Below are positions 1 to 31,813 of a stretch of DNA of 31,813 nt, in pieces. Below the pieces are notes generated by a model that searched no databases, was not told where the DNA came from, and saw only the letters and a program-made list of their open reading frames with translations. The first letter of the stretch is position 1; each line of letters opens with the position of its first letter. Both the position numbers and the translations under genes were made by a program. Source of the DNA: a virus. The stretch lies in the IMG/VR virus record IMGVR_UViG_3300027749_000343, positions 1 through 31,813 of that record; one strand, given 5' to 3'.

Positions 1-188
1 TCGTTGTTAAAGTAAGGAATAGGCTTTTCATGCATAGCCCAGTTTCTAACGGCCCCGCTCTTGCCATCAAATATATAAACACCATTACGCTTATTTGGTT
101 TGTCTACTGTGGCGCATCTAGCCCAACGATCATGCACCAAGTCTTGAATGATTAAACCGTGTTGTTCAGCAAAAGATTCAAAGGTCAT
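1..188 (-). CDS. Primase/helicase-like protein, N-terminal fragment (cut by window edge)
   Basis: The minus strand reads from an ATG at 188-186 to the window edge without a stop, giving about 62 residues that begin MTFESFAEQHGL. The segment has a DRWARC...DKPNKRNGVY pattern followed by an aromatic/glycine-rich stretch. This resembles the start of phage Toprim-type primase/helicase proteins, where an N-terminal zinc-binding or DNA-recognition part precedes the catalytic domain. No catalytic motif lies in the visible piece, so the assignment rests on N-terminal resemblance and on its place after a helicase and a methyltransferase. A GGAG Shine-Dalgarno lies 7 nt before the ATG. The start overlaps the methyltransferase stop by 11 bp, so the two are probably co-transcribed. 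The rest of the gene lies to the left of the window. Confidence 0.6.
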   Translation of the reverse strand, partial: MTFESFAEQHGLIIQDLVHDRWARCATVDKPNKRNGVYIFDGKSGAVRNWAMHEKPIPYFNN

Positions 189-1779: not shown

Positions 1780-2003
1780 CTTTTAATTCCGTGAGCTTTT
1801 TCTATATACCGAGCAAATTCATGCAAAGTTTCAAACTTCTTATGCTTAATTATTTCATCTATTGCCCAATCGGTTAGCGGACTTCTAAATTGCGCATAAT
1901 CCCTTAAATCAGCAACCACTTTAGTAAATCTTTTAGAGTCCTCAAGGTGGGCTGTATAGTGCCAGTTAATATCATCAACTAACTCTTGTTCTTGGGCGTT
2001 CAT
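1776..2003 (-). CDS. Hypothetical protein, 75 aa
   Basis: This is a small, charged, probably soluble and mostly helical protein (begins MNAQEQELVDD, ends EKAHGIKR) with no recognised domain. It starts at an ATG with an AAGGA Shine-Dalgarno about 7 nt upstream. It overlaps the helicase stop by 4 bp, and its own stop overlaps the methyltransferase start by 4 bp. This tight coupling supports it as a real gene translated with its neighbours. No function can be given. Confidence 0.75.
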   Translation of the reverse strand: MNAQEQELVDDINWHYTAHLEDSKRFTKVVADLRDYAQFRSPLTDWAIDEIIKHKKFETLHEFARYIEKAHGIKR

Positions 2004-3490
2004 GCTGCAATCCTTTGTGGTGTTTTGCTTTTGCTAAAAGCAATCATTCGGCTTTTAATCCAGCGCAATGTCTCTGGGGTTGGTGGTTTTGGGTCTACTC
2101 TTAATCCATTGGGAAAGACTGAAAACTTTTCTTTATATTTGTAAGCTGCCCAACCCTCTTTGTAACCTTTAAGTCTGCCGTAATACATCAATTCAGAGTA
2201 AAAGTCTGTGTTATTTTTCTGAAGTTTTCGGTTGGATTCTTCTAATTCCTCCAGCTCCCCAGCTATGCTTATAATGTTAGATATAAATTGCCGCTCATGG
2301 CCGCACGAAAGGCATACATTCGTCTGCGATATCCATAAAGCCTCGCACTTCGGACACTTTGCCTGCTTCTTTTCTTTTTCAGTAGGCTCACGCTTAGTGC
2401 TTTCGTAATTACCCTCATCAAGGGTTTGAACCCCCTCATTGAATAAATTATCCCAGTCATCTCTAAACCTTAAAAAGTTACCAGAATGATCTAACCATAA
2501 GGCAAACTCTTTGGATTCATTAGGGCGCATAACCCTACCCAATTGCTGGACATGGGAACTAAAAGACTTAGAAAATGGGCGGGCTGATACGCCAATCATT
2601 ACATCTGAAACATCAAATCCACGGGTCAAAATATCAGTAGCAATTAATCCATGAATTTCGGTATCGGGTCTAGAAAAGTCCTCAATGGTTTGGCGCTTAA
2701 ACTCATCGTCTTCCTTATAGGATATAGATACAAAGTTATATCCAGCTTCAGCAAACTGTCTGACTAAATCGCGCCCATGCTCTACGCCAGAACAAAATAC
2801 AATTGTTTTCCTAGGCCCACCAAATACATCATAAGTTTTCTTGATCCACTCAACAACAATGTCGCCAGTAATCTGCATACCACGCTTGGTTACATCATCG
2901 GCTTTCCATTCTCCAGCCAGCTTGGTAACGCCGGACATATCAATCTCTTTGGCAATGTATACCTTTAGTGGAACAAGCCAGTTCTTTTCTATTAATTCGC
3001 CCGTAGGAGATGCGCCAACCACATGGGTATAGATATCCCCTAACCCTTTGGTAAACGGAGTCGCAGTAAGCCCTATAACCTTAATCTGGGGGTTATTTTT
3101 AATAAACTCTACTGTCTTGGCTCTCATTATGTGAGCTTCGTCAATAACCAACAACTCAATATCTGGAAAGTTTAGTCTGCGCTCCAATGTTTGAGCAGAA
3201 CAGATCTGAATGCGTTCATTGGGTCTATCTCGCCAATGATTTGACTGCATAACCCCATGTTCTATACCGTACTTTGAAAGCCTAATGCTTGTCTGCTCAA
3301 CCAAGACAATACGATCTAAAATCATTGCAGTTTTTTTGTAGTCTTCGGAAACGGCTTTCATAATTGCCATTGCTACTTCTGTTTTTCCGAACCCCGTTGG
3401 GGCGTACAACATTTGCCTTGTGTGTCCTTGCTCAAACCCTTGTTTGATCTTTTCTACCACTTCAATTTGATGCTCTCGTAGCTCTAACAC
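2000..3490 (-). CDS. Superfamily 2 DEAH-box DNA helicase with zinc ribbon
   Basis: This 496-residue ATP-dependent helicase has a Q-like motif (REHQ, 5-8), Walker A PTGFGKT (31-37), Walker B DEAH (117-120), motif III TATP (142-145) and the C-terminal RecA-like domain with motif VI QLGRVMRP (316-323). Four cysteines (379, 382, 393, 396) in CPKC...CLSC form a zinc ribbon after the helicase core. The family (Res/UvsW-like) remodels branched DNA in phage recombination and origin selection; that role here is inferred. The start is GTG at 3490-3488, with a strong AAGGAG 5 nt upstream. It sits upstream of the 75-aa gene, methyltransferase and primase-like gene in one operon. A 127-bp spacer separates it from the next gene upstream. 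Confidence 0.93.
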   Translation of the reverse strand: MLELREHQIEVVEKIKQGFEQGHTRQMLYAPTGFGKTEVAMAIMKAVSEDYKKTAMILDRIVLVEQTSIRLSKYGIEHGVMQSNHWRDRPNERIQICSAQTLERRLNFPDIELLVIDEAHIMRAKTVEFIKNNPQIKVIGLTATPFTKGLGDIYTHVVGASPTGELIEKNWLVPLKVYIAKEIDMSGVTKLAGEWKADDVTKRGMQITGDIVVEWIKKTYDVFGGPRKTIVFCSGVEHGRDLVRQFAEAGYNFVSISYKEDDEFKRQTIEDFSRPDTEIHGLIATDILTRGFDVSDVMIGVSARPFSKSFSSHVQQLGRVMRPNESKEFALWLDHSGNFLRFRDDWDNLFNEGVQTLDEGNYESTKREPTEKEKKQAKCPKCEALWISQTNVCLSCGHERQFISNIISIAGELEELEESNRKLQKNNTDFYSELMYYGRLKGYKEGWAAYKYKEKFSVFPNGLRVDPKPPTPETLRWIKSRMIAFSKSKTPQRIAA

Positions 3491-3617: not shown

Positions 3618-3689
3618 TTACTTTTTTTTCAAAAATTTTAGTATAGAGATATACCCTAATGTCCCAACAATAACCCCAAAAATAAACAT
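3618..3689 (-). CDS. Tiny membrane protein, 23 aa
   Basis: The ORF encodes a single hydrophobic segment (FIFGVIVGTLGYISILKF) followed by three lysines, the pattern of a minimal inner-membrane protein with a cytoplasmic basic tail. Its ATG (3689-3687) overlaps the TGA of the ParB-like gene in an ATGA arrangement, which supports translation by coupling. The spacing and composition match another very small membrane ORF at 6139-6219. No family is recognised. Because it is so short, a chance ORF cannot be excluded. Confidence 0.5.
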   Translation of the reverse strand: MFIFGVIVGTLGYISILKFLKKK

Positions 3690-4480
3690 CATGCTGCTTG
3701 TTTAACTTGCTTTTTCCAGTAGTTAATCTGCTTCATTAATTCTGCATTTTTGTTTTGAAAAGTATCTCTGCTGACTTTTAAAGCTCTAATCTCAATCTCT
3801 TGGCTTTTAACCTTAGCCTGGAGTTCATTAATTAATTCCTGAGCAGCATTTCTTTCCTCGTCAGTGGCATCCATTGCCACAACCGCAACTCTTGCCTCAA
3901 GTTTTTCATTCTCATTGGCTAATGTTTCAATCGTAGTAGCAAGCTCTTGAATTCGATGATCTTCTTCGGTTGGCTCGGGAATCTCTTCAATGCGAGGTTT
4001 TATAGTTCTTTCAATTTCTTGGCCGTTTCGAATATATTTAACGGATTCTTTTTCTGGCATTCCCATTGCTTTTCGAACCGCTGAAACCAGCATATTTGAT
4101 ACATTACAAGCCTTGGCAATTTCTCGGTCACTCCACTCAGACCACTCAAAATCATCAAGAATTTTACAAACAGCTTTACGTTTATCTGCGTGTGTTCTAG
4201 GTAATCCGTGAGCATTGTTTGCTCCAGCAGCATAAAGCATTGCACTTCTGCGTGTACCTTCTCGTACATCAGCATCAATAATCTCTAATCCAGCCTCTTT
4301 ATGAGCAAAATAACGGTGAATTCCGTCCGCTAAGTAATACTTAGTGCCGTCGTGAAAAAGAATAATTGAGGGAAATTTAACTCCGTTACGCAAAGCTTCT
4401 GCATATTCGGTAACGGTTTCTTTGTTGATATTTACACGAAATTGTAAATCTGGATCAATGTTAATTTGCGACAGTTTCAT
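3689..4480 (-). CDS. ParB/Srx-fold DNA-binding protein with coiled-coil tail
   Basis: The 263-residue protein starts with a ParB-like N-terminal domain; DGIHRYFAHKEAG (52-64) matches the conserved ParB GxHR box. It is followed by a helix-turn-helix-like segment around 116-140 (DREIAKACNVSNMLVSAVRK). The C-terminal part (about 174-260) is rich in Glu, Lys, Leu and Gln and looks like a coiled coil for oligomerisation. ParB-fold proteins bind DNA as CTP-dependent clamps or act as nucleases; phages use them as regulators or partition-like proteins. No ParA is visible, so partition is not supported and a regulatory or nuclease role is as likely. An AAGGAA Shine-Dalgarno precedes the ATG. The start shares one base with the upstream stop (TAATG). 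Confidence 0.85.
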   Translation of the reverse strand: MKLSQINIDPDLQFRVNINKETVTEYAEALRNGVKFPSIILFHDGTKYYLADGIHRYFAHKEAGLEIIDADVREGTRRSAMLYAAGANNAHGLPRTHADKRKAVCKILDDFEWSEWSDREIAKACNVSNMLVSAVRKAMGMPEKESVKYIRNGQEIERTIKPRIEEIPEPTEEDHRIQELATTIETLANENEKLEARVAVVAMDATDEERNAAQELINELQAKVKSQEIEIRALKVSRDTFQNKNAELMKQINYWKKQVKQAA

Positions 4481-6221: not shown

Positions 6222-7076
6222 ATGAAAAAGGTATGTGTAGTTAACTTCTGGGACGGTGCGTTTGACGGGGACTTCTTTGAGTTCTTTTTTAGCGCAGCAT
6301 TTGATGGCATAAAGTATGTGCATAGCCCGCATGACGCTGACGTAATCATTAGCTCCGTCTTTGGTCATACAGAAACAAATCCCGCAAAAACAATTATGTA
6401 TATTGGCGAGAATGTACGTCCTAATTACATGGGATATAACTACTCCCTTTCATTTGATCACGATACTTATGGTGGACGTAACTTCCGTTTACCTTTATGG
6501 TGGTCACGCCTTGCATGGGACGGATTTACACAAAAGCCCCGCAAACAGAATTCCCACAATCATGGATACGAAGACCTTATATCCATTGATTCCCTAACAA
6601 ACGGGCGCACTCTTGATTTGAGCCAGAAGACTAAGTTCTGCGCCATGATTGCTGGGAACCCTGAAGGACTGCGAGTTAACTTGTACAACTCATTGAACAA
6701 GTACAAACCAATAGATGGCTATGGTCTGATGTTTGGTAACTCATTGCGCCAATCTAAGTTTGATATATTGCCTGAGTATAAGTTCTGCTTATGCCCTGAG
6801 AACTCGGTCTATGACGGCTATGTAACAGAGAAACTAATTGACGCTTACGCGGGCGGTACTGTGCCAATCTATAGTGGGGACTCATCGGTAGCTGAGGACT
6901 TTAACTACAACGCATTTTTAAATTATCAAGAAATTAGAAATATGGAACAGTTTGTAGAACACGTTTCTTTTTTTGACCGCAACACAGAAGCATACCGAGC
7001 TGTATATGAGCGGCCTTTGCTAGATGAAGCGCCAAGTCTTGATAACGCAATTGCTTTTGTAAGGAGTATTGTATGA
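6222..7076 (+). CDS. GT10 family (alpha-1,3/4-fucosyltransferase-like) glycosyltransferase
   Basis: A 284-residue protein with the GT10 donor-binding signature: KFCLCPENS (187-195) followed by DGYVTEKLIDAYAGGTVPIY (198-217), plus GENVRP (62-67) in the acceptor half. GT10 enzymes move a sugar, usually L-fucose from GDP-fucose, to a glycan by inversion. They are common in bacteria that decorate LPS and rare in phages. No signal peptide is seen, so it should be cytoplasmic. It opens a cassette with a radical SAM enzyme, an FkbM methyltransferase and two further glycosyltransferases. Substrate specificity cannot be read from the sequence. The stop overlaps the next ATG (ATGA). Confidence 0.9.
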   Translation: MKKVCVVNFWDGAFDGDFFEFFFSAAFDGIKYVHSPHDADVIISSVFGHTETNPAKTIMYIGENVRPNYMGYNYSLSFDHDTYGGRNFRLPLWWSRLAWDGFTQKPRKQNSHNHGYEDLISIDSLTNGRTLDLSQKTKFCAMIAGNPEGLRVNLYNSLNKYKPIDGYGLMFGNSLRQSKFDILPEYKFCLCPENSVYDGYVTEKLIDAYAGGTVPIYSGDSSVAEDFNYNAFLNYQEIRNMEQFVEHVSFFDRNTEAYRAVYERPLLDEAPSLDNAIAFVRSIV

Positions 7077-7372
7077 ACGTAAATGAAATAGCTGATTGGT
7101 TAGAGCAACAATCTAGCGTTAGTTGGTCAAACGATTTTGGTCAATTTTTAATTGATATAGCCACCATGCTACGCCAGCAACAAGCTGAAATAGAGGCGTT
7201 AAAACAAATCATTGACGCAAACAATCTAAGCCAAAACATTGGGCAGTTTGTAAAACCAAATTTAAAAATTGAGGAAGTCATGTTGGAGAATTGCACTTGC
7301 TACAAGTTAGGTTATAGCCAGTTAAATAATTATAGAAAGGTAAACAATGAAAATAATAACGAAGCTGCGTAA
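7073..7372 (+). CDS. Hypothetical protein, 99 aa
   Basis: The N-terminal half (MNVNEIADWLEQQSS ... IATMLRQQQAEIEALK) matches a pattern often seen in small phage proteins: a short helical domain followed by a coiled coil. No catalytic motif is seen. The C-terminal part has a CTC cysteine pair. It starts in an ATGA overlap with the GT10 gene and ends 26 bp into the next gene. Confidence 0.7.
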   Translation: MNVNEIADWLEQQSSVSWSNDFGQFLIDIATMLRQQQAEIEALKQIIDANNLSQNIGQFVKPNLKIEEVMLENCTCYKLGYSQLNNYRKVNNENNNEAA

Positions 7373-7559
7373 AGAAAGAAAAGACGGTTCAGCTATTTGC
7401 GAGCTTGATTTGGATAAAGAAGCCAAGGACTGGCTAATAGGTGAGGGGTTTGTATCCGTCTTAAGTAAAGCATTGGGTATGTCCGAGTCGTTTACGAAGA
7501 AGCAACCTAAAAGAATAAGAGAGTTATTAGAAGATTTTGATGTAGACGGGCGTTGCTAA
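7347..7559 (+). CDS. Hypothetical protein, 70 aa
   Basis: A small charged protein (starts MKIITKLRKERKDG, ends LEDFDVDGRC) with no recognised domain. An AGAAAGG ribosome-binding site lies before the ATG, inside the end of the previous gene. The stop overlaps the radical SAM start (TAATG). Its place just before that gene hints at co-expression only. Confidence 0.65.
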   Translation: MKIITKLRKERKDGSAICELDLDKEAKDWLIGEGFVSVLSKALGMSESFTKKQPKRIRELLEDFDVDGRC

Positions 7560-8428
7560 TGAAATCTAAGTACGGCATACAGCACCCACACTCGCCAGTA
7601 ATGGAGCTAACAACTATGGTTGGGTGTCCGCTTATGTGTTCATTTTGTCCGCAAGAAAACTTGCGCGATAACTATGGCGATAAGACCAAGTATTTACAGC
7701 CAGTAGATTTAACCCATGTTCTTGCCCAGCTACCAAAGAATACCCGCATAGATTTTTCAGGTATGTCCGAACCTTGGGCGAATCCTAAGTGTACCGATAT
7801 GCTGGAAGAAGTTTTATACATGGGATTTAATATAGCGATCTACACGACCCTGTACGGAATGACAAATGAAGACGCAATTAGGGTTAAGAAAGTGTTAGAA
7901 GACCACCCTAAGCAAGTTGAGGTAATTATGTTTCACCTACCCGATTCCAATGGCAACATGAAAGGCTGGAAATATTCAGACGAATGGGTAGAGTCGTTAA
8001 AGATAATGACTCAGCTTGATCTTCCTTGTGGCTTTGGTGCTATGACTATGGACGGTTCAGGTAAGGTTCACGTTGATCTTCAAGATATGATTGGCGATCT
8101 GCCCGGCTGGAAAGGCCATACACGGGCGGATAGCCTTAAGGTAGAGCAAGTAGGTGATCAGGCGTTAAGCGTTACTCCGCGTCATCAGTTCGCTTTAACC
8201 TGTGCCTCTACGCCATTCTATGACCGCAATGTTTTATTACCAAATGGAGACGTAGTTCTTTGCTGTATGGACTACAACTTAAAGCACGTTATAGGCAACC
8301 TATTAGAACAGACCTATGACGAGATATTTGCGGGTAAACCCTTACTTGATCTGATCGCTATGAACGAAAAGCCTGAGTTTAACAAGTGCAGTATATGTAA
8401 GTCGTGCGATAACGTGAGAAGAATATGA
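7559..8428 (+). CDS. Radical SAM enzyme with C-terminal SPASM-like cysteines
   Basis: A 289-residue protein with the canonical CxxxCxxC (Cys23, 27, 30) that holds the radical-SAM [4Fe-4S] cluster, followed by the GGE-like motif FSGMSEPWANP. The C-terminal region has a CAS...LPNGDVVLCC...CSICKSC pattern, like the auxiliary-cluster (SPASM/Twitch) region. Such enzymes generate a 5'-deoxyadenosyl radical to modify peptides, sugars or other substrates. An in-frame TTG lies two codons upstream, but the ATG at 7559, overlapping the preceding stop as TAATG, is the likelier start. Its neighbours are glycosyltransferases and an FkbM methyltransferase, so a sugar substrate or a glycosylated peptide is a reasonable guess. 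The stop overlaps the next start (ATGA). Confidence 0.88.
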   Translation: MKSKYGIQHPHSPVMELTTMVGCPLMCSFCPQENLRDNYGDKTKYLQPVDLTHVLAQLPKNTRIDFSGMSEPWANPKCTDMLEEVLYMGFNIAIYTTLYGMTNEDAIRVKKVLEDHPKQVEVIMFHLPDSNGNMKGWKYSDEWVESLKIMTQLDLPCGFGAMTMDGSGKVHVDLQDMIGDLPGWKGHTRADSLKVEQVGDQALSVTPRHQFALTCASTPFYDRNVLLPNGDVVLCCMDYNLKHVIGNLLEQTYDEIFAGKPLLDLIAMNEKPEFNKCSICKSCDNVRRI

Positions 8429-9150
8429 TTGATCAACTAAAAGAATTAGTTAAGGCATTGCGCCCCGTAAAGACTAAGTTTGAGCTTATACGGATAGGCG
8501 GGGATAACGATGGCGGTTATCTTATTCCCGATGATTTAGAGTGTATATCCTGTTGTTTTTCACCCGGTGTTGCTGATACGGCTAGCTTTGAAGTTGGCCT
8601 TTGTAAACGCGGTATTGGTTCACACCTTGCTGATGGATCGGTAGACAGTGCGCCCAAAGGATTTACCCCGTTATCGTTTACTAAGAAGTATCTAGATGGC
8701 TACAACGATGAAAACAATATGACCTTAACCGCATGGATGCATGGGCAATTGGCTATTCTTGGCGATTACATTTTGCAAATGGATATTGAAGGCGGCGAAT
8801 ATACGACCATTCTAACTACTGATCGCAACACATTAAACAGATTTAGGATTATCTGCATTGAAATACACGACACTGATGCGTGGTTTAATCCGATTGCTTG
8901 GAACACCGTATGTACGTTTTTTGCCAAGCTAACACAAGATTTTTATGTAGTACATAACCACCCTAACAATAACTGTGGGAATGTGGATGCTGGTGGATTT
9001 ATTTTGCCACGGGTATTTGAATTAACTTTATTGCGTAAGGATAGAAGTGAAGCATTAGGATTTGTAGAAGTTTTACCTCACCCATTAGATGCACCGAATG
9101 TAACCGATAAACCTGTATTAGAACTACCAAAGGAATGGTATGGAAACTAG
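8425..9150 (+). CDS. FkbM-family SAM-dependent methyltransferase
   Basis: A 241-residue protein with a class I methyltransferase pattern of the FkbM type: an SAM-binding loop FSPGVADTASFE (45-56), an acidic residue after strand 2 (LAD, 68-70) and the conserved LQMDIEGGEY (117-126). FkbM enzymes usually O-methylate sugars or polyketides. In phage and LPS loci they sit with glycosyltransferases, as here. The start overlaps the radical SAM stop, so the two are likely translated together. The methylated sugar position cannot be inferred. Confidence 0.85.
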   Translation: MIDQLKELVKALRPVKTKFELIRIGGDNDGGYLIPDDLECISCCFSPGVADTASFEVGLCKRGIGSHLADGSVDSAPKGFTPLSFTKKYLDGYNDENNMTLTAWMHGQLAILGDYILQMDIEGGEYTTILTTDRNTLNRFRIICIEIHDTDAWFNPIAWNTVCTFFAKLTQDFYVVHNHPNNNCGNVDAGGFILPRVFELTLLRKDRSEALGFVEVLPHPLDAPNVTDKPVLELPKEWYGN

Positions 9151-9301
9151 AGACGAATTTGCTAAATCAATTATGGCTGGCATTATTGCGGCTGATTGGA
9201 AGTTTGATTTAACTGAAAAGAAGTGGGACGAGATTGCCGCTAAACGTGCTTATGAGCTAGCAGATGCGATGATTAAAGAACGAGAGATTAATAATGTATA
9301 A
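9140..9301 (+). CDS. Hypothetical protein, 53 aa
   Basis: A small charged, helical ORF (METRDEFAKSIMAG..., ending KEREINNV) with no domain I recognise. It starts 11 bp inside the end of the FkbM gene, and its last codons overlap the next ORF by 8 bp. A GGAATGG sits just before the ATG as a weak ribosome-binding site. The continuous chain of overlaps supports it. Confidence 0.6.
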   Translation: METRDEFAKSIMAGIIAADWKFDLTEKKWDEIAAKRAYELADAMIKEREINNV

Positions 9302-9464
9302 GAACATTGGTCTTGGCATACTTTTTATTGCTTTGATTCTAGCGTTTAGTATGCGTAGCAACAACTGCCAAAAGGTAACTGTAGAACCGTATAAACAGAA
9401 CCAAATGGTTGACGGCTGTGTAATGCAGAAATCAGGCAGCGTATGGATTAGGACTTGCGGATAA
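9294..9464 (+). CDS. Small membrane-anchored protein with three cysteines, 56 aa
   Basis: The N-terminus is a clear membrane segment (NIGLGILFIALILAF, residues 4-18) followed by a polar tail with Cys25, Cys42 and Cys55. The membrane anchor would place the tail in the periplasm or outside, where disulfides could form. No lipobox is evident. It overlaps the previous ORF by 8 bp. No family is recognised; an accessory membrane or superinfection role is conceivable but not shown. Confidence 0.6.
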   Translation: MYKNIGLGILFIALILAFSMRSNNCQKVTVEPYKQNQMVDGCVMQKSGSVWIRTCG

Positions 9465-9470
9465 ATAAAA

Positions 9471-9635
9471 ATGCAATTAACTAAAGAATATTTAAACATG
9501 AGTCAAGACGAAGTTGCCGAGGTGTTAAACATTAACCGCAAAGCAGTTTTGGACGCAGAACGATCTGGCATTGAAAAAATCCGCAAGGCGCTTGAAGAAC
9601 GCGGCATTGACATTAAGATGTTGCTAGGAGATTAA
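9471..9635 (+). CDS. Stand-alone HTH protein resembling sigma70 region 4, 54 aa
   Basis: Residues 10-46 (MSQDEVAEVLNINRKAV, then DAERSGIEKIRKALEERG) follow the layout of sigma70 region 4: helix, turn, recognition helix, then a basic Lys/Arg-rich helix. The rest of a sigma factor is absent, so this is a lone region-4-like domain. Such small proteins could bind -35 DNA or the RNA polymerase beta flap; that is inference. The stop abuts the next ATG (TAAATG). Confidence 0.65.
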   Translation: MQLTKEYLNMSQDEVAEVLNINRKAVLDAERSGIEKIRKALEERGIDIKMLLGD

Positions 9636-10337
9636 ATGAGAGTTATGGTAATCACCCCCACTACTGGGAAAAGTACGGTTAATAAAGCGATTGAAAGTGT
9701 TGTTAATCAGACGATAGAGACCGAGCATTTAATTGTGGTAGATGGTGCAAAGGCTCAAGACAATTTAACCATTAACAACATTCAAGTACCGCCTAATTGG
9801 AATGGAAATATGATGCCGCTTTATGAAAACGTAGGCGGTAACGGTTGGTATGGTCACCGAGTTTATGCTGCTATGCCACTAATGGTAAACGCTGATTACA
9901 TTCTGTTCTTAGATGAAGATAATTGGTTTGAGCCTAATCATGTAGAAACAATGATTAATAAGATTAAAAGTAAAAACTTAATGTGGGCGTACAGCTTGAG
10001 GAGAATATGTGATGAATCAGGACAATATGTTTGTGACGATGATTGCGAATCACTTGGTCGCTGTCCGACGTTTTACGATAGTACTCTCAATTTTGTTGAT
10101 ACTAATTGTTATTGCTTTCGCCGCGAATTCTTGGTTACTGTGGCGCACAATTTTTATGGGCAATGGGGCGCAGACCGTCCTTTCTATAAAGCTGCCAGCA
10201 CAGCCTTGCCTGCCTTCGGATGCACAGGAGAGGCTACGGTTAATTACCGAGCGCCCGAAAGATTATTTAAGATGTTTGCAGAAGGAAACAAATTAATGAA
10301 AGATGCATACAAAGTCTTGCCTTGGAGAATGAAATGA
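9636..10337 (+). CDS. GT-A fold (GT2-like) glycosyltransferase
   Basis: A 233-residue protein starting with the typical GT2 strand MRVMVITPTTGK and a VVNQT segment, with the metal/nucleotide-sugar motif as DEDN (93-96) after YILFL. The family transfers a sugar from a nucleotide donor, here in the cytoplasm. Five cysteines cluster at about 127-158, which is unusual and may bind metal. It belongs to the glycan cassette with the GT10, radical SAM and FkbM genes. A TAGGAG ribosome-binding site lies 7 nt before the ATG. Donor and acceptor are unknown. Confidence 0.85.
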   Translation: MRVMVITPTTGKSTVNKAIESVVNQTIETEHLIVVDGAKAQDNLTINNIQVPPNWNGNMMPLYENVGGNGWYGHRVYAAMPLMVNADYILFLDEDNWFEPNHVETMINKIKSKNLMWAYSLRRICDESGQYVCDDDCESLGRCPTFYDSTLNFVDTNCYCFRREFLVTVAHNFYGQWGADRPFYKAASTALPAFGCTGEATVNYRAPERLFKMFAEGNKLMKDAYKVLPWRMK

Positions 10338-16988: not shown

Positions 16989-17342
16989 TTATAATTCGAG
17001 CGGATCAAACCCTAGTTCAGTCGCAATAGAATGCGCCCGTCTACGAAAGGTAGCGTCATGCTTTGTCCATGCGTCAGATACGGTTCCTGACCTAGACATA
17101 TGAATCATTTCATGCGCCATCGTCCGTATAACAGTATCCAAATGCCCACAACGAGCATCTGAGATAGTAATAATATGTTCGTGCTTTTCCCCATCGTCAT
17201 AAAGGTAAGAACCCATAGTCTCTGGGTCAGTCTCTACGACAAACTTAATCTGCTCTGGCAATGGTAACGACCACTTCATAAATGGTTCGCAACAGTACAG
17301 AGTCGAATAGATATTTTTAAGTATTTGAGTAGTCAGTTTCAT
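16989..17342 (-). CDS. SprT-like zinc metalloprotease
   Basis: A 117-residue protein with the zinc-protease motif AHEMIHM (HExxH at His77-Glu78-His81) and a third ligand candidate His95 in TKHDATFRRRA, as in SprT/Spartan-like domains. It is short and lacks the C-terminal zinc ribbon of full SprT proteins. In phages it may act in virion maturation or on host DNA-bound proteins; both are inferences. The start overlaps the upstream phosphoesterase stop by 4 bp. Confidence 0.82.
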   Translation of the reverse strand: MKLTTQILKNIYSTLYCCEPFMKWSLPLPEQIKFVVETDPETMGSYLYDDGEKHEHIITISDARCGHLDTVIRTMAHEMIHMSRSGTVSDAWTKHDATFRRRAHSIATELGFDPLEL

Positions 17343-18380: not shown

Positions 18381-21300
18381 TTACTTCTCAGCATTAGAAA
18401 CTTGTTGGTTAAAATTCCGCATTACGGAAATCATTTGGTCTGTTTTCCGTTTAATCTGATCTTTAGAAGCATCCTTTTCATAAAGCTCTTTACGTTCTTT
18501 TTTCAAGGCTGTAATTTGATTCTCTACGGAATTAGCCCTTTGCCACAAGCGAGCAGAAGGATTTTCTTTCATAAAGTCTGCGGTACTTTCTTTATGCGCT
18601 TGGCGTCCTTTTATTTCTTGTTCAAAATTAGACATCTTTACAACATTGTTATAAAAGGTATTTGCTTGAGATGCATTGGAGTCCACATCACCATAAAATC
18701 GTCCTAACAAAGGAATGCGATAAGCCGGAGTTTCTTCGCCAGTAATAAGGTTTGAAATAATATCTTTAGTTTTAGTAAGTTCTCTGCCCACTCCGCCAGT
18801 AACTTGACCAGCAAGGTAATCAATTTCATCAGCAGTTGGGCTAAGAAGTCCCTTTTGATATTTTGTTCCACCAGACATAAAGTTTAAAGCTTCAGCTAAA
18901 AATTTACTAATAGAGCTGGCAGTTTCTCTAGATCTTGAATATCCAGGGGTTGGTTTAGTTGCACGATCTTCTCTAAAAATTGGTCTGTCAAATGCATCTT
19001 TATTTGCACCTATTTGAACAAAAGGTTTTGCTACCGTTGGGGTTATGGTTTGCCAGCCAAGACCAGTACCACCTAATGGGTTAAATGCATTAATTGAGGT
19101 ACTTGCAATATTAAGCAAAGCTTTGGTTGGGTTCTTTCCACCATTAAGTACAAAGTCAGTTGTAACTCTGCCAATCCCGGGAAACACATGAAAACCTAAT
19201 GGATAAGGAATGGATACATATTTCTTACCGCCAACTGGAATAACAAAGTTTCTTTCACGAATAAATTCTGGAGGATCGTCGTCTGCAAATCCAGCGGCTG
19301 CCATCATTACGGATTGCATAACCCCAATGCCTACACCACCAGCCATAATTTTTCTACCCGTAGGAGAAATAACTGTCTTGCCTTCACTATTTTTTGTAAA
19401 CAATGTTTCATAAATTCTTACAGAACCCTGTACAGCAGCGTTAAAGAAAGCAAAATAAGTATTAATCCTACGGCTTAGTAAACCTTTTCTATCAAAGTTA
19501 ACAGTTAAGTTCTTAGCTAGATTAGCCGCCTGATCTCTGCTCATGCCATTATCTAATGCGGTTTTATATGCGGCCAACCTGACAGAATTTTCCATAATGT
19601 CATTAAAATCAGACAATTGGTTAAGAACTGATAAAGCCATTTTCTTGGCTCTATTATCAGTAAGCTTTCTTAATCCCTCAGAGATAAGCTGTTCTTCTTC
19701 TTTTCTCCGCATTAACATATCTCGGTATCCAGTTTGACCGCCATCTTCTCTAAACTGAATAAACATTTTAGCCATCTCTGAATTGGGTCTAGCAGTGCCG
19801 TTTCTTTCTGCTGCCATAACTCCAGCAATTCCCCTCATTGAAGACATGATATGAGACGCAACTTCTTTTTGATGCCCCTTAAGCTCAGTAGACGAAAGGT
19901 TATACATCGCACCTTTTACGTCCCTTACTAAGTTAACTACTCCAAATATTGGGTTGTATTGGGTATTAACAGCAGCAATCCAATGGGTACCTTTGCCAAT
20001 AAAATTCTCAAAGTCATGAAGCGTTTCTACATCCATATTGCGCAATGCAGCAACCATATGCGCTGCTCTAGGATCTTTATTACTAAAGAATATATAACGG
20101 TCTTTTCCGTTAATGCGTACTGGAAACACATTAGGTTGACTTAATATGGCTGTATTTATCCTGTACCCAACCTGACCAGTAAGCTTATCAACATACGGTG
20201 TGCGTGGGGCATCAATTAAATTTAATACATATTCTGGGTCTTTAATACCCAAATCGTCTAACTCTTGAATTGCAGCTTTTTTGCTTTTAACAGCATCTGG
20301 GCTATAAGCAAACCAAAAGTTTGGATTGGGGTTCTTAAGTACTAAACCATACAAAGCCTGACCAACCTTAATCTTTTCACCACGAACAATTGCCCGCTCT
20401 CTTTGGGCAATAACATTAGCCAAAATGTCAGAAACTTTTTTGGTTGATCCAGTAGCTTGCTTACTAAAACTTCCTTTAATGCCAAATCCTTGACCAAGAC
20501 CAGTCCCCGGAGGGCTTACAAAGTCATCATCCTCACGGAACAAAGGAACATAATTTTCATAGGTTTTACGCCATGTCTCAATTAAAGAACGCTCTTCTGC
20601 ACCAGAATTAACTAAAATTTCTTGTGTCCCAGTAATGATGTTGTCTATTCGTTTAGCAATGGCATCAAATTTGGTTTTGTCTTCTTTACTTAAATTTTCA
20701 AAATATTTTTTTGCTACATTAGTATGAACTCCAGAACCCTGATCTTGTAAGGAGGAATTCCCCTTGTTAATTTCATTCATTTTGTCATTGCGCTCTTTAG
20801 CATGGCGCATATGTAGATATTCTTGAATTTGCTCTAAAGTAATCTTATTGGAATGCATCTCATTAATGATTGGCATAACCTCATCAAGCAAGAAGTCTTT
20901 TGTCTTTCCAGCAACCTTACCGTGGTAAAGGGTTTCTTTTTGCTCTACATTAAACTGGTCATCAATAGTTTTGCCTTCTTTTTTTATGGCATCCTGTATT
21001 CTTTTGGTATCAATATTCTTGTTTACAAGGTTGCGTAATAGGCTGTCCTTGCTAAACCCAAGAACTAAAGAGTCTTCTGGAGAAGTCCACTTATACATTT
21101 CTGGAGTTTTTTCTTCAGATACAATTTGATTGCCAGTTTTATCTTTGAATGTTCTACGTTTAATACTTTCAAAGGTACGACCCTCGCTTATTAACTTTTG
21201 GCTTTGGAACTTACCATCAGCTTTAGATAAGCTATTCAATGCATTAATAATAGGCGCATTAGAATCCAAGCCAAATACGCTTTTAGCTTTCTGAGCAAAC

Positions 21301-24272
21301 TCTCTAAGCCACTGCTTAAGCTTTCCAATAAACGACTTATCGCCCTCAAAACGAGCTGCCATAATATCAGTTGCATTAACAGCCCAGAATTCAGATGGGT
21401 TTGTATATTGATAGTTACTGTAATCTACAGAACCATTATTAAGCGCACTTTTTGCATCTGTTAATAATTGAGTGTTACCGCCCAAATGATAATCAAGAAG
21501 ATTCTTAAAGAAAGTCTTTAAAGTATTGTCTGTGCCTTTGTCGGCTTTTTTGGCGGCTTGAGATAAACGCTTAAGCCATAGCTTGCGAATTCCCATTTGA
21601 ACTGTTTCTGGCATCATGCGTTCTGTATGGTGCAAAATCTCGTGAACCGCAGTATCAGAATTGCCAGACCCTTTATATAAAGTCATCAAACGACTTAAGT
21701 CCTGATAGCTACCAGATGGGCTACCTTCTTTTGCCTGTTTAATAGATATAGCTAAGTCTTCTACAAGACTTGGATTGCGATTAATAAACCATGAAGCAAA
21801 GTCTACCGCTTGTTGATCAAGCTCACCGTTACGAACTGCCGCATTCATCTTTTCTAAAATAATGTTCTGGCCACGTTTCCTTGGTACTGGAACTCGTTCA
21901 ATTTTACTTTGATCTAAAATGGAAATAGCTTGATTAGTAAACACATCTGGAGAGATGCGGTCAGAATCAAACAATCTTTTAAGTCTATTTAACTCAATTC
22001 GCAATGATGGGGCGCGTTCTTCTATACCCTGAAAGACTGGTTGTGCTGTAGATAAACGCTCAATGTTTTCTGCTTGTGTTTTTGCTTCAGGAGCAGAAGC
22101 ATAATTATCTGGAGAAAAACCTTGTTGGATAGCCTGTTGATTAAACTGTTCAATTAACTTTGGATTTAATGGGCCATTTTCTAATTCAGCTCCATTAAAA
22201 TATTTAAGCTCAACTGGCAAGTATTTCCATCCCAATTCTTTAGCGGCCATAATTCTATGGTTGCCTTCATTAACATAAGGCGTTCCATCTTGAGCTACCG
22301 TAATAAATGGCACATAGTCTCCGCCATTATTTTTACTTTGAGGAAGTCTTCCAGTATCCCCCATAACTTGCTTTAATGAATCCAAATCTTTTTGACGAAC
22401 ATTTTTTTGCTCTTGATTTTCGCCTTGAATGGATGTCAAAATATCTATAGGAATTAATACATTTTGATTAAATGTTCCAGTTAATGAACCATATACTTTT
22501 GGAGCGCCTGATGGCTTGCGTCCATATTCATTTGAAATATCACGTTTTCCTTGAAGCCAATTTTGGCTTGGAATATCAGAACTAAACTTTAAAAGATTAG
22601 CTGGGCGTTCAATATTTTCTAATACTTGACCCTCTGGACTTGCTGGCTTTTCAATACCTTTTTGCACTTCTTGCGGTGTAAGCTCTGCAAGTTGTTTTTC
22701 AACATCCATAGACATGGATTCTGGCAGTTGAGCTTGAATAGTTTCTGCTGGTACTGAAGGAACAGTTTCTATGGGGGCTGGCTCTTGAATAGCCTCAACA
22801 GGAGGCGTTTCAACCTCTTCTGTTTTATTTGGTACACCCTGGGTCGCATCAAAAAAGGTTTTTAATTGAGTCTGAACTTCTGGATCTTGCACATTCATAC
22901 CATTGGCTGCTGCTCTATCAACAAGCTCTTCGTATGTACGTGGCATTTGAAGATTGTCTGGTTTTTTCGCAGCGCCAACATATTTCATAGCTTGTTGGGC
23001 GGCGGCGCCACCTCCTAACATCATTCCACCTTGAGCAACGGTAGCGGCTAAAGTATTTGCTGCGCCATCAAAGAAGTCTTTAAAACCAGCCTCTGGGTTA
23101 AGTCCGTAGCCCTTATCTACTGCAAATTGACCAGCATAAGTTAATTGCTCACCAGGTATTTCTTTGGCTAATGCTTTAGCAAAGTATGTAGAAAGGTCTT
23201 TGGTAGGTATATCTTTAGCAATTGCCTTAATACCTTTAAGCGTATCTCCTAATCCAAACTTTTCTCCAAGAACCTCAAATGATGCATACAACCCAGATCT
23301 AACTGCGGAGTCTGTTGTATCCATCCCAAGTCTTTTGCTTTGATCATAAGTTTGACCAAAAGACTGTGCAAACATTGACGCCAATACTGGGATTTCAGAT
23401 CCTGTAATAACGCTACCAGCTAATGCTGGAAGTTGTTGTGCTATGGAAGTAATTGCTCCCTCAAGAATGGCAACTGGTTTAGATGCTGGCTCGCCAATTG
23501 CTTGTGTATAACGATTAATGTTATCTAAGGTACGTGTTGTGTCTGTAGTGTCTACACCTAACATATCGCCAATAAAACGATTAATACCACCACCGCCTTG
23601 TAATATGCCAGCACCAGCTTTTGCGCCAGCCCGTTTTAAGACACGACCAGTTTCTTCAATACCAGTCATTTCTGGGCGTAGTCGGTAGTCTTGTTCTATT
23701 TGATATTCTGGTGGGGCTTCTTTAACTTCTCCATAAGGAGTCATCTTTCCTTGACCAGTAGCAGCCATGCGTTTAGCAGTAGACTCAGCAAAGTCTGGAG
23801 CCAATCCTTGCTCCATTAAAGATTGTTTACGAGCTTCTAAACGAGTATCAAATAAAGTTGGTGAAACAGTAGGGGTAAACCCTAACTGCTGATCTTTAAG
23901 TTGAGTATCTCTAGCGGTATAGTAATCATGGATTTGTTTAAAGCGTGGATCTACCGATGCTAGCCGTTCTCTTTCGGCTGGATTTGCCACATCATAAGCA
24001 CGTTGCAGAGGATTGCCAGCGCTAGGTAAGTACTCTCCCGTTGGCAATGTATCGGACGGGGCTGTAGTACCCTCTAAAACGCTTTTAGTAAGCTTTTCTT
24101 GGGCTGGAGCTATACCAGTTACCTGAAGTCCAGTCATAGGGTCATATGCTGGTTCTGCTTGTGGCTGTCTTTCCATGGTAAGACGTTTTGCCGTATTGCT
24201 AATTACAGACGGATCAGTACCGTCTGGAAATTCTAATATAGTTCCGTCAAATAATTGGGCTTCAATAGCCAT
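18381..24272 (-). CDS. Giant polyvalent virion protein with ParB-like and metallopeptidase-like motifs
   Basis: This 1963-residue protein is the largest in the window. The N-terminus (MAIEAQLFDGTILEFPDG) is a start often seen in phage internal virion proteins. Hydrophobic and Gly/Ala-rich helices lie at about 280-330 and 400-430. A ParB-like box EGNHRIMAAKELG is at 669-681. A zinc-peptidase-like HEILH is at 877-881. The segment from about 1440 (NPIFGVVNLVRDVKGAMYN) matches the LPD38-type domain of large polyvalent proteins. A coiled-coil-like tail ends it. Such multi-domain proteins are packed in phage capsids and ejected to protect DNA or alter the host. It sits downstream of the lytic transglycosylase gene in the virion cluster. 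The functions of the motifs are inferred. Confidence 0.85.
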   Translation of the reverse strand: MAIEAQLFDGTILEFPDGTDPSVISNTAKRLTMERQPQAEPAYDPMTGLQVTGIAPAQEKLTKSVLEGTTAPSDTLPTGEYLPSAGNPLQRAYDVANPAERERLASVDPRFKQIHDYYTARDTQLKDQQLGFTPTVSPTLFDTRLEARKQSLMEQGLAPDFAESTAKRMAATGQGKMTPYGEVKEAPPEYQIEQDYRLRPEMTGIEETGRVLKRAGAKAGAGILQGGGGINRFIGDMLGVDTTDTTRTLDNINRYTQAIGEPASKPVAILEGAITSIAQQLPALAGSVITGSEIPVLASMFAQSFGQTYDQSKRLGMDTTDSAVRSGLYASFEVLGEKFGLGDTLKGIKAIAKDIPTKDLSTYFAKALAKEIPGEQLTYAGQFAVDKGYGLNPEAGFKDFFDGAANTLAATVAQGGMMLGGGAAAQQAMKYVGAAKKPDNLQMPRTYEELVDRAAANGMNVQDPEVQTQLKTFFDATQGVPNKTEEVETPPVEAIQEPAPIETVPSVPAETIQAQLPESMSMDVEKQLAELTPQEVQKGIEKPASPEGQVLENIERPANLLKFSSDIPSQNWLQGKRDISNEYGRKPSGAPKVYGSLTGTFNQNVLIPIDILTSIQGENQEQKNVRQKDLDSLKQVMGDTGRLPQSKNNGGDYVPFITVAQDGTPYVNEGNHRIMAAKELGWKYLPVELKYFNGAELENGPLNPKLIEQFNQQAIQQGFSPDNYASAPEAKTQAENIERLSTAQPVFQGIEERAPSLRIELNRLKRLFDSDRISPDVFTNQAISILDQSKIERVPVPRKRGQNIILEKMNAAVRNGELDQQAVDFASWFINRNPSLVEDLAISIKQAKEGSPSGSYQDLSRLMTLYKGSGNSDTAVHEILHHTERMMPETVQMGIRKLWLKRLSQAAKKADKGTDNTLKTFFKNLLDYHLGGNTQLLTDAKSALNNGSVDYSNYQYTNPSEFWAVNATDIMAARFEGDKSFIGKLKQWLREFAQKAKSVFGLDSNAPIINALNSLSKADGKFQSQKLISEGRTFESIKRRTFKDKTGNQIVSEEKTPEMYKWTSPEDSLVLGFSKDSLLRNLVNKNIDTKRIQDAIKKEGKTIDDQFNVEQKETLYHGKVAGKTKDFLLDEVMPIINEMHSNKITLEQIQEYLHMRHAKERNDKMNEINKGNSSLQDQGSGVHTNVAKKYFENLSKEDKTKFDAIAKRIDNIITGTQEILVNSGAEERSLIETWRKTYENYVPLFREDDDFVSPPGTGLGQGFGIKGSFSKQATGSTKKVSDILANVIAQRERAIVRGEKIKVGQALYGLVLKNPNPNFWFAYSPDAVKSKKAAIQELDDLGIKDPEYVLNLIDAPRTPYVDKLTGQVGYRINTAILSQPNVFPVRINGKDRYIFFSNKDPRAAHMVAALRNMDVETLHDFENFIGKGTHWIAAVNTQYNPIFGVVNLVRDVKGAMYNLSSTELKGHQKEVASHIMSSMRGIAGVMAAERNGTARPNSEMAKMFIQFREDGGQTGYRDMLMRRKEEEQLISEGLRKLTDNRAKKMALSVLNQLSDFNDIMENSVRLAAYKTALDNGMSRDQAANLAKNLTVNFDRKGLLSRRINTYFAFFNAAVQGSVRIYETLFTKNSEGKTVISPTGRKIMAGGVGIGVMQSVMMAAAGFADDDPPEFIRERNFVIPVGGKKYVSIPYPLGFHVFPGIGRVTTDFVLNGGKNPTKALLNIASTSINAFNPLGGTGLGWQTITPTVAKPFVQIGANKDAFDRPIFREDRATKPTPGYSRSRETASSISKFLAEALNFMSGGTKYQKGLLSPTADEIDYLAGQVTGGVGRELTKTKDIISNLITGEETPAYRIPLLGRFYGDVDSNASQANTFYNNVVKMSNFEQEIKGRQAHKESTADFMKENPSARLWQRANSVENQITALKKERKELYEKDASKDQIKRKTDQMISVMRNFNQQVSNAEK

Positions 24273-29254: not shown

Positions 29255-29899
29255 CTATAGCCTTGATACAAAAGATAATGTAACCACTACAGACGGGCTA
29301 ACAGGTCTAGCATAGGGGGTTGTAAGCGCTGGCAAACTAACTAAAGACACGGAGTTAAAGTCCGTAGCCCAGTACAAAGCAACACTATCCCCAGTATTTA
29401 AAGAAACAAAGAAGTTGGCTGCCGCAAGTGCATAGTTAAACTCGGTGGCGTTTTTCCTTGCTGGAAGCACAATTCTACTGGCAGTAGCTGTTATATCTGC
29501 CCCATTTTTACGCAACCAAATATCTGCATAGTGGATTTGATTGTCATTATTTTGAACTTGGATACTAAACTGAAGGTTATAAATTCCGTTTTGGGACACA
29601 GTAATAGCGCTATTTGCCAAGGTCATGCCACTAGAATAGTCAGCAGTATTAAGGGTAACTAGCGTAGCGGTATTAGCCGTAGCGGTTACATTGGAGTTAT
29701 TCTGAACAGATATATAGGTATTTCCCAAATACTGCCCACCAGTAGCCCCCAATAGCGCCCCGGTAACGTTATCTACTTGGTTAAAGTATAGGCGTAATGC
29801 ATTGCTAAATTGATCTTGATAGTTTTGGTTGTACTCTACTGGCCCAATAGGTAAGTTAGGAGCAATTGTATTACGGATGCTTATAGCGTTTGATGCCAT
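29255..29899 (-). CDS. C1q/TNF-like virion fibre protein
   Basis: A 214-residue protein whose C-terminal two-thirds form a beta-rich pattern like a C1q/TNF jelly roll: GIYNLQFSIQVQN, YADIWLRKNG, FFVSLNTGDSVALYW and VVVTLSFVSRL. The N-terminus (PNLPIGPVEYNQNYQDQFSN) may be the virion-attachment part. Such trimeric domains are used by phage fibres or head decorations to bind surfaces. It overlaps the upstream tail-protein gene by one base. Confidence 0.75.
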   Translation of the reverse strand: MASNAISIRNTIAPNLPIGPVEYNQNYQDQFSNALRLYFNQVDNVTGALLGATGGQYLGNTYISVQNNSNVTATANTATLVTLNTADYSSGMTLANSAITVSQNGIYNLQFSIQVQNNDNQIHYADIWLRKNGADITATASRIVLPARKNATEFNYALAAANFFVSLNTGDSVALYWATDFNSVSLVSLPALTTPYARPVSPSVVVTLSFVSRL

Positions 29900-31813
29900 T
29901 AGCTTCTCCGTCCATCTGGTCTAATATCAATCCGTGGTGCGCCTAACTGCCAAGATACACCTAAGCCATCAGAACTAATCTTCATCGCCATTTGACGGGC
30001 GCGAATCCTTGTATAAATCTGGCCTGTAAATTCTTGAACCGTATACTGTGGGTATACAGCGTAGTTATTACCGCTGATTGTTGCGGCGTTTGCTGGACTT
30101 CCATAGGCGGAACCTGAGTTTTGGCGGGGTTGTAATTCCATCGTAACAGTTGGCATATCTACATTTGAGCCATTAAAATTAACGTCAGGCAACATTCTCC
30201 AAACATAACCAAAGTTATGCCCATCTCCAATATCGAAATCAGAAGACTGTACATAGGAGTAAATAGGTAAGGAAGTAGCCGTAGAAGCATCATCAGTACC
30301 AAGTTCATGGTTAATTACACAGCCTGTCGAGTTCAATAAAGAATCCACGCCATTCTGGAACGTACCCATTGGGGTTTGGCGTAATCCTGAATCTAACCAA
30401 AAAGTACGGTTTAATGTACCGTAATACCATACACGGTCAAGGTAGTTGTAAATGACATACTTATCTACTACAACCGAATTAGTAGAACAATAGAACCACC
30501 AGATTTCATTAAACCCTTCGTTGCTACCAACAGAAACTTGCCAAGATTGATCTTTATTAATATCAGCAAAGATATATTGACGCAATGCACAAGGTAACGT
30601 TTCTACACGACCAGAGTACATATAGAATTTATCTCCACCCATCCAATAGGTGATGTTATTAACCGTAATAACTACGTTTGGACCCATTACTGAGATGTTA
30701 TCCATCAATACTTGAAAGCCCCAAATATAGGGTGGCCCTAAATACTGCATGGAGTAAAGAGTTGAATCTGTGAGGACTAATATTTCTTGGCGGGTATTAA
30801 TGGTAGTAACAATATAAGAACCATGCGAAAGCCTAAACTCACCTGCTTGGTTTGTAATATCTGGTACCCATTGATATGGGTTTTCTTGGTCTGACCACCG
30901 TACTAACATAGGGTCAAAATCCGTTGTTGGATTTGTAGGATCGTAAGAATTGGCGCCAAAAGCCATAACAAACCGCTGAATATCAGAAGCTAAAACTTCA
31001 AGTGTTTTATAGGGAACAAACTGCCCGCTGTAAGATGCTGTATTAGCTAAATCTGATAACTTTTTACCACGATAGGATGTGCCTAAGTTTGCATCCCAAT
31101 AAAAAAGTTGTCCACCGCGTTGGGCAAATACAAGATCTTGACCATAGTTATCATTGGTCCATATAACAAGCTGTTCGCCTACACTAACACCTAAAGGAGC
31201 GGCATTTCCCCAACCGTATTGACCCCACGTACCAGCGCCCCAGCCATTACCGTTCACATAGTATTCGAGTCCTACATGGCACAAGACTTGGCAGGTTACA
31301 TTTCCACCCACATTAGAGGCAGAAGAAGTACAGTAGGTTACGTTAGATAAGTTGTTATCTGAGGTTGAAGCTAAAAAGTAATAAACCGCTGATCCATAGC
31401 TTAAAACCTGATGTTCACCATTAATAACTGTATTAGCTAAACCGCCAACAGAAACCGCGCAGTTAGATAGAATCAGATAATCTCTAGTATTAGCGTTATT
31501 AGTACCATCAAAAATCTTAACAAAAGCGCTTGAGACGTTAGCGTTTGCCGTATGGGATGCTGCGGTAGTGTTATTAAACCCGCGTACACAGTTTGTTGCT
31601 GTATTAGCGCTTAATGTATTATAAAAAATAACCTCGCTATCAATTTTAACGTAGCCATTTTGAGGTGGAAAATTAGTAGATGCAGTAAATAATAGGGTTG
31701 TCGTAGTCGCGTTTACGTTTGCTGCTAACGTAGTACGGCCCGTAGATAAAGCATTGCTTAAAGTAAGTGTTGATACAACAGGGGTAACATCATAATATTG
31801 ACCGCCGTTTTCA
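29899..31813 (-). CDS. Tail/packaged-DNA-stabilisation protein (P22 gp10/T7 gp12-like), start outside window
   Basis: The frame stays open from the stop at 29899 to the right edge of the window, so the true start lies beyond it. An internal GTG at 31311 is not needed as a start. The last 470 residues have the beta-propeller-like pattern of podovirus tail-tube or P22 gp10-type proteins: FAQRGGQLFYWDA, WSDQENPYQW, NNITYWMGGDKFYMYSG, NEIWWFYCS and VIYNYLDRVWYYG. Upstream in the visible part is a short module, LFTASTNFPPQNGYVKIDSE then CVRGFNNTTAASH, that recurs in phage structural proteins. The role is probably to close the portal or form the tail nozzle. Confidence 0.8.
   Translation of the reverse strand, partial: ENGGQYYDVTPVVSTLTLSNALSTGRTTLAANVNATTTTLLFTASTNFPPQNGYVKIDSEVIFYNTLSANTATNCVRGFNNTTAASHTANANVSSAFVKIFDGTNNANTRDYLILSNCAVSVGGLANTVINGEHQVLSYGSAVYYFLASTSDNNLSNVTYCTSSASNVGGNVTCQVLCHVGLEYYVNGNGWGAGTWGQYGWGNAAPLGVSVGEQLVIWTNDNYGQDLVFAQRGGQLFYWDANLGTSYRGKKLSDLANTASYSGQFVPYKTLEVLASDIQRFVMAFGANSYDPTNPTTDFDPMLVRWSDQENPYQWVPDITNQAGEFRLSHGSYIVTTINTRQEILVLTDSTLYSMQYLGPPYIWGFQVLMDNISVMGPNVVITVNNITYWMGGDKFYMYSGRVETLPCALRQYIFADINKDQSWQVSVGSNEGFNEIWWFYCSTNSVVVDKYVIYNYLDRVWYYGTLNRTFWLDSGLRQTPMGTFQNGVDSLLNSTGCVINHELGTDDASTATSLPIYSYVQSSDFDIGDGHNFGYVWRMLPDVNFNGSNVDMPTVTMELQPRQNSGSAYGSPANAATISGNNYAVYPQYTVQEFTGQIYTRIRARQMAMKISSDGLGVSWQLGAPRIDIRPDGRRS

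Follow-up and report, generated by a model that had tools for sequence, protein, structure and literature searches.

A phage-type polyvalent protein with predicted ParB/sulfiredoxin-like and zincin-like folds ahead of an LPD38-containing C-terminal module

Introduction

Polyvalent proteins, in which unrelated domains are joined in one long chain, were described by Iyer et al. 2017 (PMC5512222), who predicted their injection. In the parts of that paper drawn on here, LPD38 is listed as phage-only, an MPTase occurs in fusion with a distinct ParB domain and with LPDs, and autoprocessing by the MPTase is put forward as a proposal. A similar arrangement is known from phage N4, whose virion RNA polymerase (vRNAP, gp50) has an HExxH-bearing part, C1, and a mostly helical part, C2; the portion of the authors' preprint used here (PMC12633501) reports no structural relatives of C2. 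According to the same portions of these two sources, N4 vRNAP is packaged unprocessed (PMC5512222) and the polymerase is less active in the presence of its C-terminal domain (PMC12633501, preprint). A third set of long phage proteins comprises the DarB-like giants of Bcep22-like phages. One of these, JC1 gp69, has 4515 aa with helicase, methylase-type and lytic-transglycosylase-like domains, and was detected in CsCl-purified virions by 51 unique peptides giving 15.61% coverage (PMC9144972, in part); phage Parlo has a DarB-like protein of 3764 residues (PMC6606913, in part).

Here we analyze a long gene in a window of 31813 bases, which is the whole of a linear IMG/VR virus record without a completeness estimate. 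A first-pass annotation, made from the sequence, had read its product as a virion protein joining ParB-like, zinc-peptidase-like and LPD38-like parts.

Results

A polyvalent gene among virion genes

The gene, the parts of its product and the two virion-related genes in the same run are as follows (window coordinates).

18381-24272, minus strand: polyvalent protein gene including the stop codon; 1963 aa, ATG start
24168-24272, minus strand: N-terminal tag, residues 1-35, with a near-identical start in loci L005, L008 and L016
22653-24167, minus strand: N-terminal region, residues 36-540, with relatives by phmmer
22068-22610, minus strand: predicted ParB/sulfiredoxin-like domain with GNHR, residues 555-735, from the model, Foldseek and relatives
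21183-22067, minus strand: predicted zincin (MPTase-like) region with HEILH, residues 736-1030, from ligands, fold and profile
21390-21392, minus strand: Glu961, candidate third ligand, invariant in the aligned rows
18384-21140, minus strand: C-terminal module (C-module), 919 aa, mostly helical, residues 1045-1963, from an 84-sequence alignment, the model and BFVD matches
18705-19280, minus strand: LPD38 stretch within the C-module, residues 1665-1856, Pfam PF18857
24282-26258, minus strand: SLT transglycosylase-domain protein, 658 aa (PF01464, E 9.6e-13; lytic tail protein in PHROGs)
29899-31311, minus strand: virion structural protein, farther upstream in the same run (phrog_3287, E 7.9e-50)

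Residue i starts at window coordinate 24272-3(i-1), descending. The ORF translation has GNHR at residues 670-673 (22254-22265, minus strand) and HEILH at residues 877-881 (21630-21644, minus strand), exactly where the first-pass annotation, which gave no strand, had put them. By chance, GNHR turned up in 0.36% of 5000 shuffles of the protein and the pattern HE[VILMFAST][VILMFASTG]H in 0.20% of 5000. No Pfam domain covers the GNHR or the HEILH region at E <= 1, or at E <= 5, so that both domains rest on conservation, profile and predicted structure. NCBIfam and PADLOC gave no hit, and no RNA polymerase family came up in the Pfam or PHROGs scan of the protein.

The polyvalent gene sits among virion genes, with the phrog_3287 virion protein and the SLT protein encoded in the same run. 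The SLT gene lies directly upstream, and its product is possibly co-packaged. Portal and capsid genes are not seen because the linear record ends inside the virion module.

A 117-aa SprT-like ORF (16989-17342, minus strand; 23.1 bits against a Pfam cut-off of 25.6) also contains an HExxH motif, HEMIH, and follows the polyvalent gene and a metallophosphoesterase gene. A separate ParB-like protein is encoded at 3689-4480 (minus strand; phrog_1033, E 3.7e-18). A C5-cytosine DNA methylase adjoins a ResIII/DEAD helicase at 178-3490 (minus strand), and at 6222-10337 (plus strand) there is a cluster encoding a family 10 glycosyltransferase (fucosyltransferase-like), a radical SAM/SPASM protein, an FkbM methyltransferase and a family 2 glycosyltransferase.

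The GNHR region is a ParB/sulfiredoxin branch that Pfam misses

The AlphaFold2 model of residues 555-1035, built on a 63-sequence alignment, has a mean pLDDT of 83.3, rising to block means of 92-98 over residues 565-724, and a pTM of 0.44, which leaves the relative placement of the two domains undefined. Predicted structures with the motifs outside the folds of their families would have spoken against the first-pass annotation; the model instead puts GNHR in a ParB/sulfiredoxin-like fold and HEILH in a zincin-like one. When this model was compared with known structures using Foldseek, the lowest E-value was that of SbnI (6.3e-3, prob 1.00; none < 0.001), a free-serine kinase also reached prob 1.00, and Noc, KorB and sulfiredoxin followed at E 0.011-0.05. 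Among the 50 VIA-align rows listed, those starting in model residues 1-50 are likewise ParB/Srx/SerK-type, with Z up to 6.9 and some very large rmsd values; Z is 5.5-6.9 for the Noc, KorB and sulfiredoxin matches. These scores are weak but consistent with a ParB/Srx-like predicted fold for residues 555-735.

While the domain shares its predicted fold with the ParB/sulfiredoxin superfamily (SbnI, free-serine kinase, Noc, ParB, Srx), it differs from its members in sequence, with an identity of about 9-22%, and has conserved flanks of its own, GEN[NQ]EQ ... EGNHRIM. Its GNHR loop is of the G-x-H-R kind seen in this superfamily. PHROGs gives weak ParB-like matches over residues 607-690 (phrog_8071, E 0.0017; phrog_1033, E 0.0042), and the same two families match 12/63 and 10/63 members of alignment A3, respectively. 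Pfam finds ddrB-ParB in 1/63 of these members (E 0.0048) and ParB_N in 1/63 (E 0.046), and in the polyvalent protein itself ddrB-ParB (PF18763) has no match at E <= 1. The GNHR domain is thus a ParB/Srx branch that Pfam misses, of which we found no description in the openly licensed literature searched. GNHR occurs in all 53 A3 rows having the domain, a conservation that is partly selected since EGNHRIM was one of two search patterns, and R626 occurs in all 60 rows that reach this position, of which 7 or more are zincin-only rows misplaced by the aligner.

Using a three-sequence profile, relatives of the GNHR domain were found in 159 of 241 candidate stretches of viral contigs, from which 80 loci were kept. 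By hand count, and with several ORFs near-identical or stopping at a contig end, 21/80 are of <= 240 aa and 21/80 of > 1500 aa; the C-module profile matched 8/80. Nine neighbor proteins from six of the loci (tail-fibre-like, transglycosylase/endolysin-like, nuclease, deoxyribonucleotidase-like, ParB-like and unknowns, one of them without any match) suggested no clear link.

With SbnI and a free-serine kinase among the matches, nucleotide binding or phosphotransfer is as plausible a function for this domain as nuclease activity. That the domain is an SbnI/SerK-type nucleotide sensor or small-molecule kinase-like enzyme, rather than a DNase, is a serious contender that falls slightly short of an even bet: SbnI has the lowest Foldseek E-value, the free-serine kinase also has prob 1.00, and when the GNHR profile was searched against PDB sequences SbnI again came first, but at E 0.38; Noc and KorB, with sulfiredoxin, come close behind.

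The HEILH region has a zincin-like predicted fold with invariant putative ligands

In the model's own numbering, three strands (287-292, 300-303 and 308-313) precede a helix (318-332) that carries HEILH at 323-327. Among the VIA-align matches listed for model residues 244-423, zincins range from Z 5.6 to 7.8, with lethal factor reaching at most 7.8 over about 120 residues, PPEP-3 6.9 and IrrE 6.0; two of the 50 rows listed are unrelated helical hairpins. All Z scores are < 8, a level at which the tool warns of common arrangements, and the fold assignment was weighed on how well fold, motif position and conserved ligands agree. As for the ligands, H877, E878, H881 and E961 are each found in 18/18 aligned rows with a residue there, and these rows were not motif-selected, except L007, which was added by hand. 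Both HEILH histidines and Glu961 thus hold up as an invariant set of putative metal ligands. Taken together, the evidence is weak in score but consistent with a zincin-like predicted fold within residues 736-1030. Its likeness to the C-terminal domain of lethal factor, PPEP-3 and IrrE, which lies in a predicted core with an HExxH helix, is at the level of fold only (Z < 8) and implies no common target.

The zincin could also be compared with N4 vRNAP. With hhalign, a 13-sequence zincin profile scored 48.0 against a profile of the N4 C-terminal domain (CTD), a value reached by 0/200 scrambled controls (best 28.6), and the A3 profile gave E 2e-4 and prob 46.6. Judging by these profile comparisons, the zincin of the polyvalent protein and C1 of N4 vRNAP are related. 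Since N4 vRNAP, with its related zincin, is packaged unprocessed, self-cutting is no general property of such proteins. Alternatively, the zincin here may be regulatory or structural rather than self-processing, which seems to be the case for the N4 vRNAP C-terminal domain; a conformational change on ejection, rather than cleavage, would then lift the inhibition of the ParB-fold domain. The intact packaging of the N4 protein (PMC5512222, in part) and the lowering of polymerase activity by its C-terminal domain (PMC12633501, preprint, in part) speak for this explanation, which we nevertheless consider rather unlikely, as the ligands are intact in all 18 rows with a residue there, arguing for kept metal binding.

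The two domains occur together beyond the window. In 10/80 GNHR ORFs, the zincin match begins 13-20 residues past the GNHR match; these ten amount to six distinct sequences after a redundancy filter. One of the ten, L113 (the contig of L005), carries a C-module found by our first profile. In L115, L117, L120, L122, L124 and L134 that profile missed ~950-990 C-terminal residues, and a profile of these six ends (4 rows after filtering; L118, L119 and L121 left out) aligned to the C-module over 628 columns with prob 99.4 and E 8e-22. The GNHR-zincin pair therefore travels with the module.

LPD38 lies within a ~900-residue C-terminal module

The LPD38-like region at the C terminus is borne out by Pfam, which finds PF18857 over residues 1665-1856 at 135 bits, well over the curated cut-off of 27 (E 4.3e-39). 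In PHROGs, the matching stretch is far longer: the C-terminal ~885 residues fall at the C termini of giant phage proteins that have no assigned function (phrog_14770, E 1.6e-185; phrog_616, E 4e-101). The model of the C-module, from the 84-sequence alignment, has a mean pLDDT of 85.7 and a pTM of 0.86, and has 84 structural matches in BFVD at E <= 0.001, some near full-length; among the best 50 of the 84, the top 32 have query TM-scores of 0.59-0.92 and the other rows 0.21-0.62. Among the PDB fold matches listed, none is convincing (14/936 chains were unaligned), and PDB sequence searches returned no relative of either the GNHR/zincin pair or the C-module.

A three-sequence profile of the C-terminal region found relatives in 272/393 candidate stretches of viral contigs, with 80 loci kept out of the 272, and in 29/91 stretches of genome contigs. 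By our own placement, 25/29 of the latter are presumably in Betaproteobacteria; the remaining four are two archaeal (Nitrosotalea and Methanoperedens), one Nitrospirales and one Verrucomicrobia. In a phage collection, 144 records match the C-module, with Methanosarcina virus MetMV heading the listing. Matches of the C-module HMM include Vibrio phage 252E42.2 (E 9e-170), Ruegeria phage 45A6 (E 1e-143), partial matches in Pascal 19 (E 3e-40) and Page gp20 (E 5e-37), and gp44 of pelagiphage HTVC034P in two pieces (E 3e-23), compared with E 0.27 for the best of 240 shuffled proteins. These results indicate that a ~900-aa C-terminal module carrying changing cargo has LPD38 at its core; for this extent, we found no description in the openly licensed literature searched.

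Packaging is supported by homology, since the C-module is shared with JC1 gp69, the protein found in virions. The similarity covers positions 15-874 of the 903-position HMM (E 3.7e-100), i.e., a near-full C-module with LPD38, which was the part of gp69 compared here. We infer from this that the polyvalent protein of the window is itself packaged, and it would then be ejected into the host. In HTVC034P, gp44 is preceded by a putative internal virion protein B and by gp45, and a putative tail fibre gene follows it, the gene place of T7 gp16. It is nonetheless improbable that the protein serves chiefly as a structural component, such as a T7 gp16-type internal core or channel, with its two enzyme-like domains as side functions or relics, because for all the gene-order place of relatives in this T7-like pelagiphage and in Bacillus phage Page, the C-module gives no sequence match to the one T7 gp16 sequence compared and the SLT domain is in a separate neighboring gene here.

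Homology to N4 C2 was considered as well. The C-module (profile A4) matches C2 locally around VNFDRKG / VNYDRLPG at E 0.08; a wider C-module profile gives E 0.036, with 10/200 block-reversed controls scoring as high, and one including diverged modules gives E 0.071, with 11/200 as high. The prob values of the three profiles are only 0.7-1.4%, and the best match shifts elsewhere when context pseudocounts are omitted. The C-module HMM hits the N4 CTD at E 0.18, a level that shuffled proteins also reach; the best 25 of 40 Pfam families for 15 N4-type CTDs do not include LPD38; and N4 vRNAP, which has entries in the PDB sequence set, is absent from the best 50 listed in either C-module fold search. 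Since some controls score as high, we keep this homology as a hypothesis. In architecture, gp50 resembles the polyvalent protein in the order of an N-terminal part, a cargo enzyme, an HExxH zincin and a large, mostly helical C-terminal part, and also in being encoded by the last gene of a virion run. It differs in its cargo, a single-subunit RNA polymerase, for which the Pfam and PHROGs scans gave no family in the polyvalent protein. It is a tentative and doubtful idea that the C-module and N4 C2 are one ancient ejection chassis, usually zincin-gated, with swappable enzymes, in which a ParB/Srx domain would here replace the polymerase and stay inactive until ejected.

The module carries changing cargo

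By phmmer, different parts of the polyvalent protein have different relatives. Within its first 540 residues, L008 and L016 match at 1-34 and 1-40, respectively, and nowhere else. The N-terminal region is found in L005, in L096 over residues 82-517 (E 1.8e-52) and in L060 over residues 272-526, while the GNHR region is common to L005 and L007 and the zincin region to 13 other loci. On this sequence evidence, polyvalent proteins with the C-module are mosaics.

Two short N-terminal tags start C-module proteins, partly with differing sequence behind (L001, L005, L007, L008, L013, L014, L016, L018, L020, L023 and L026). Their HMMs match 5 and 12 of 7892 ORFs, build sequences and duplicates included, and all of these are C-module ORFs. 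A role of the tag in virion targeting is possible.

We scanned the region before the C-module for cargo in 38 proteins, those of the window and 37 loci. Left out were 14 loci predesignated as short or duplicate, those with an open 5' end or low coverage, 2 redundant ones, and 23 for which the size limit left no room (chiefly distant loci, and including every genome-contig locus), which biases the sample to closer relatives. An HExxH-type motif occurs in 33/38, or 32/38 discounting L020, which has only GHEGRHR; the chance rate of the pattern is 0.9% of shuffles. A loose third-ligand pattern, with a partner in 23/38 representatives, proves little either way. Pfam finds ART-PolyVal (ADP-ribosyltransferase) in 10/38 and ddrB-ParB in 5/38 of the cargo regions, and L016 has ddrB-ParB, HELGH and the C-module in one protein.

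These results bear on two claims of the first-pass annotation. All three parts are indeed present in the window's protein, LPD38 by Pfam and the other two as predicted folds. The suggestion that their combination may define a particular effector is not supported: the C-module carries many other cargoes, L016 repeats the theme with ddrB-ParB, and GNHR is also found in short proteins. A ParB-fold domain, a zincin and LPD38 are a recurring theme rather than a single effector.

GHEGRHR/DGNHR motifs were also seen in other giants, at protein positions 1074 of L012, 1041 of L020, 279 of L039, and 1981 and 2930 of L095. Pfam at E 0.001 assigns no family to the L012 and L020 cargo regions. These giants perhaps contain further ParB-fold branches.

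Discussion

Our computational analysis identifies domains, predicted folds, conserved ligands and mosaic inheritance in a 1963-aa protein that belongs to the known polyvalent class, with a ParB-like branch absent from the Pfam library. As in the phage-type proteins described in the parts of PMC5512222 used here, unrelated domains (an HExxH MPTase, a ParB-superfamily domain and LPD38) stand in one long chain, and the virion gene context is alike. It differs from the polyvalent proteins of that source, to the same extent consulted, in that the ParB branch has no ddrB-ParB match and LPD38 lies within a ~900-aa module.

Our preferred reading, with a probability of about 70%, is that the virion takes up this phage-type polyvalent protein and delivers it along with the DNA, the C-module acting as carrier, the ParB-fold domain as cargo and the zincin as cutter. 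The chain would run from the N-terminal tag and region through the ParB/Srx-fold domain and the zincin to the ~900-aa helical C-module with LPD38. The C-module, perhaps with the tag, would be the constant carrier, responsible for the protein's entry into the capsid and its exit from it. Once in a new host, the ParB-fold cargo would bind or hydrolyze nucleotide and possibly nick DNA. The zincin between cargo and carrier would cut either its own chain or a host protein, which might free the cargo or switch it on in time. The DNA-acting and protein-cutting activities proposed by the first-pass annotation, and with them cleavage and its timing, are what we infer from this arrangement.

Our results indicate that LPD38, so far catalogued without a function, is the center of a carrier module of many phages and of a Methanosarcina virus. 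The LPD38 module may thus serve as a marker for finding particle-borne phage proteins and their cargo. The GNHR ParB/Srx branch, which occurs in short proteins as well as in giants, is a candidate early-infection enzyme that is testable as a single domain.
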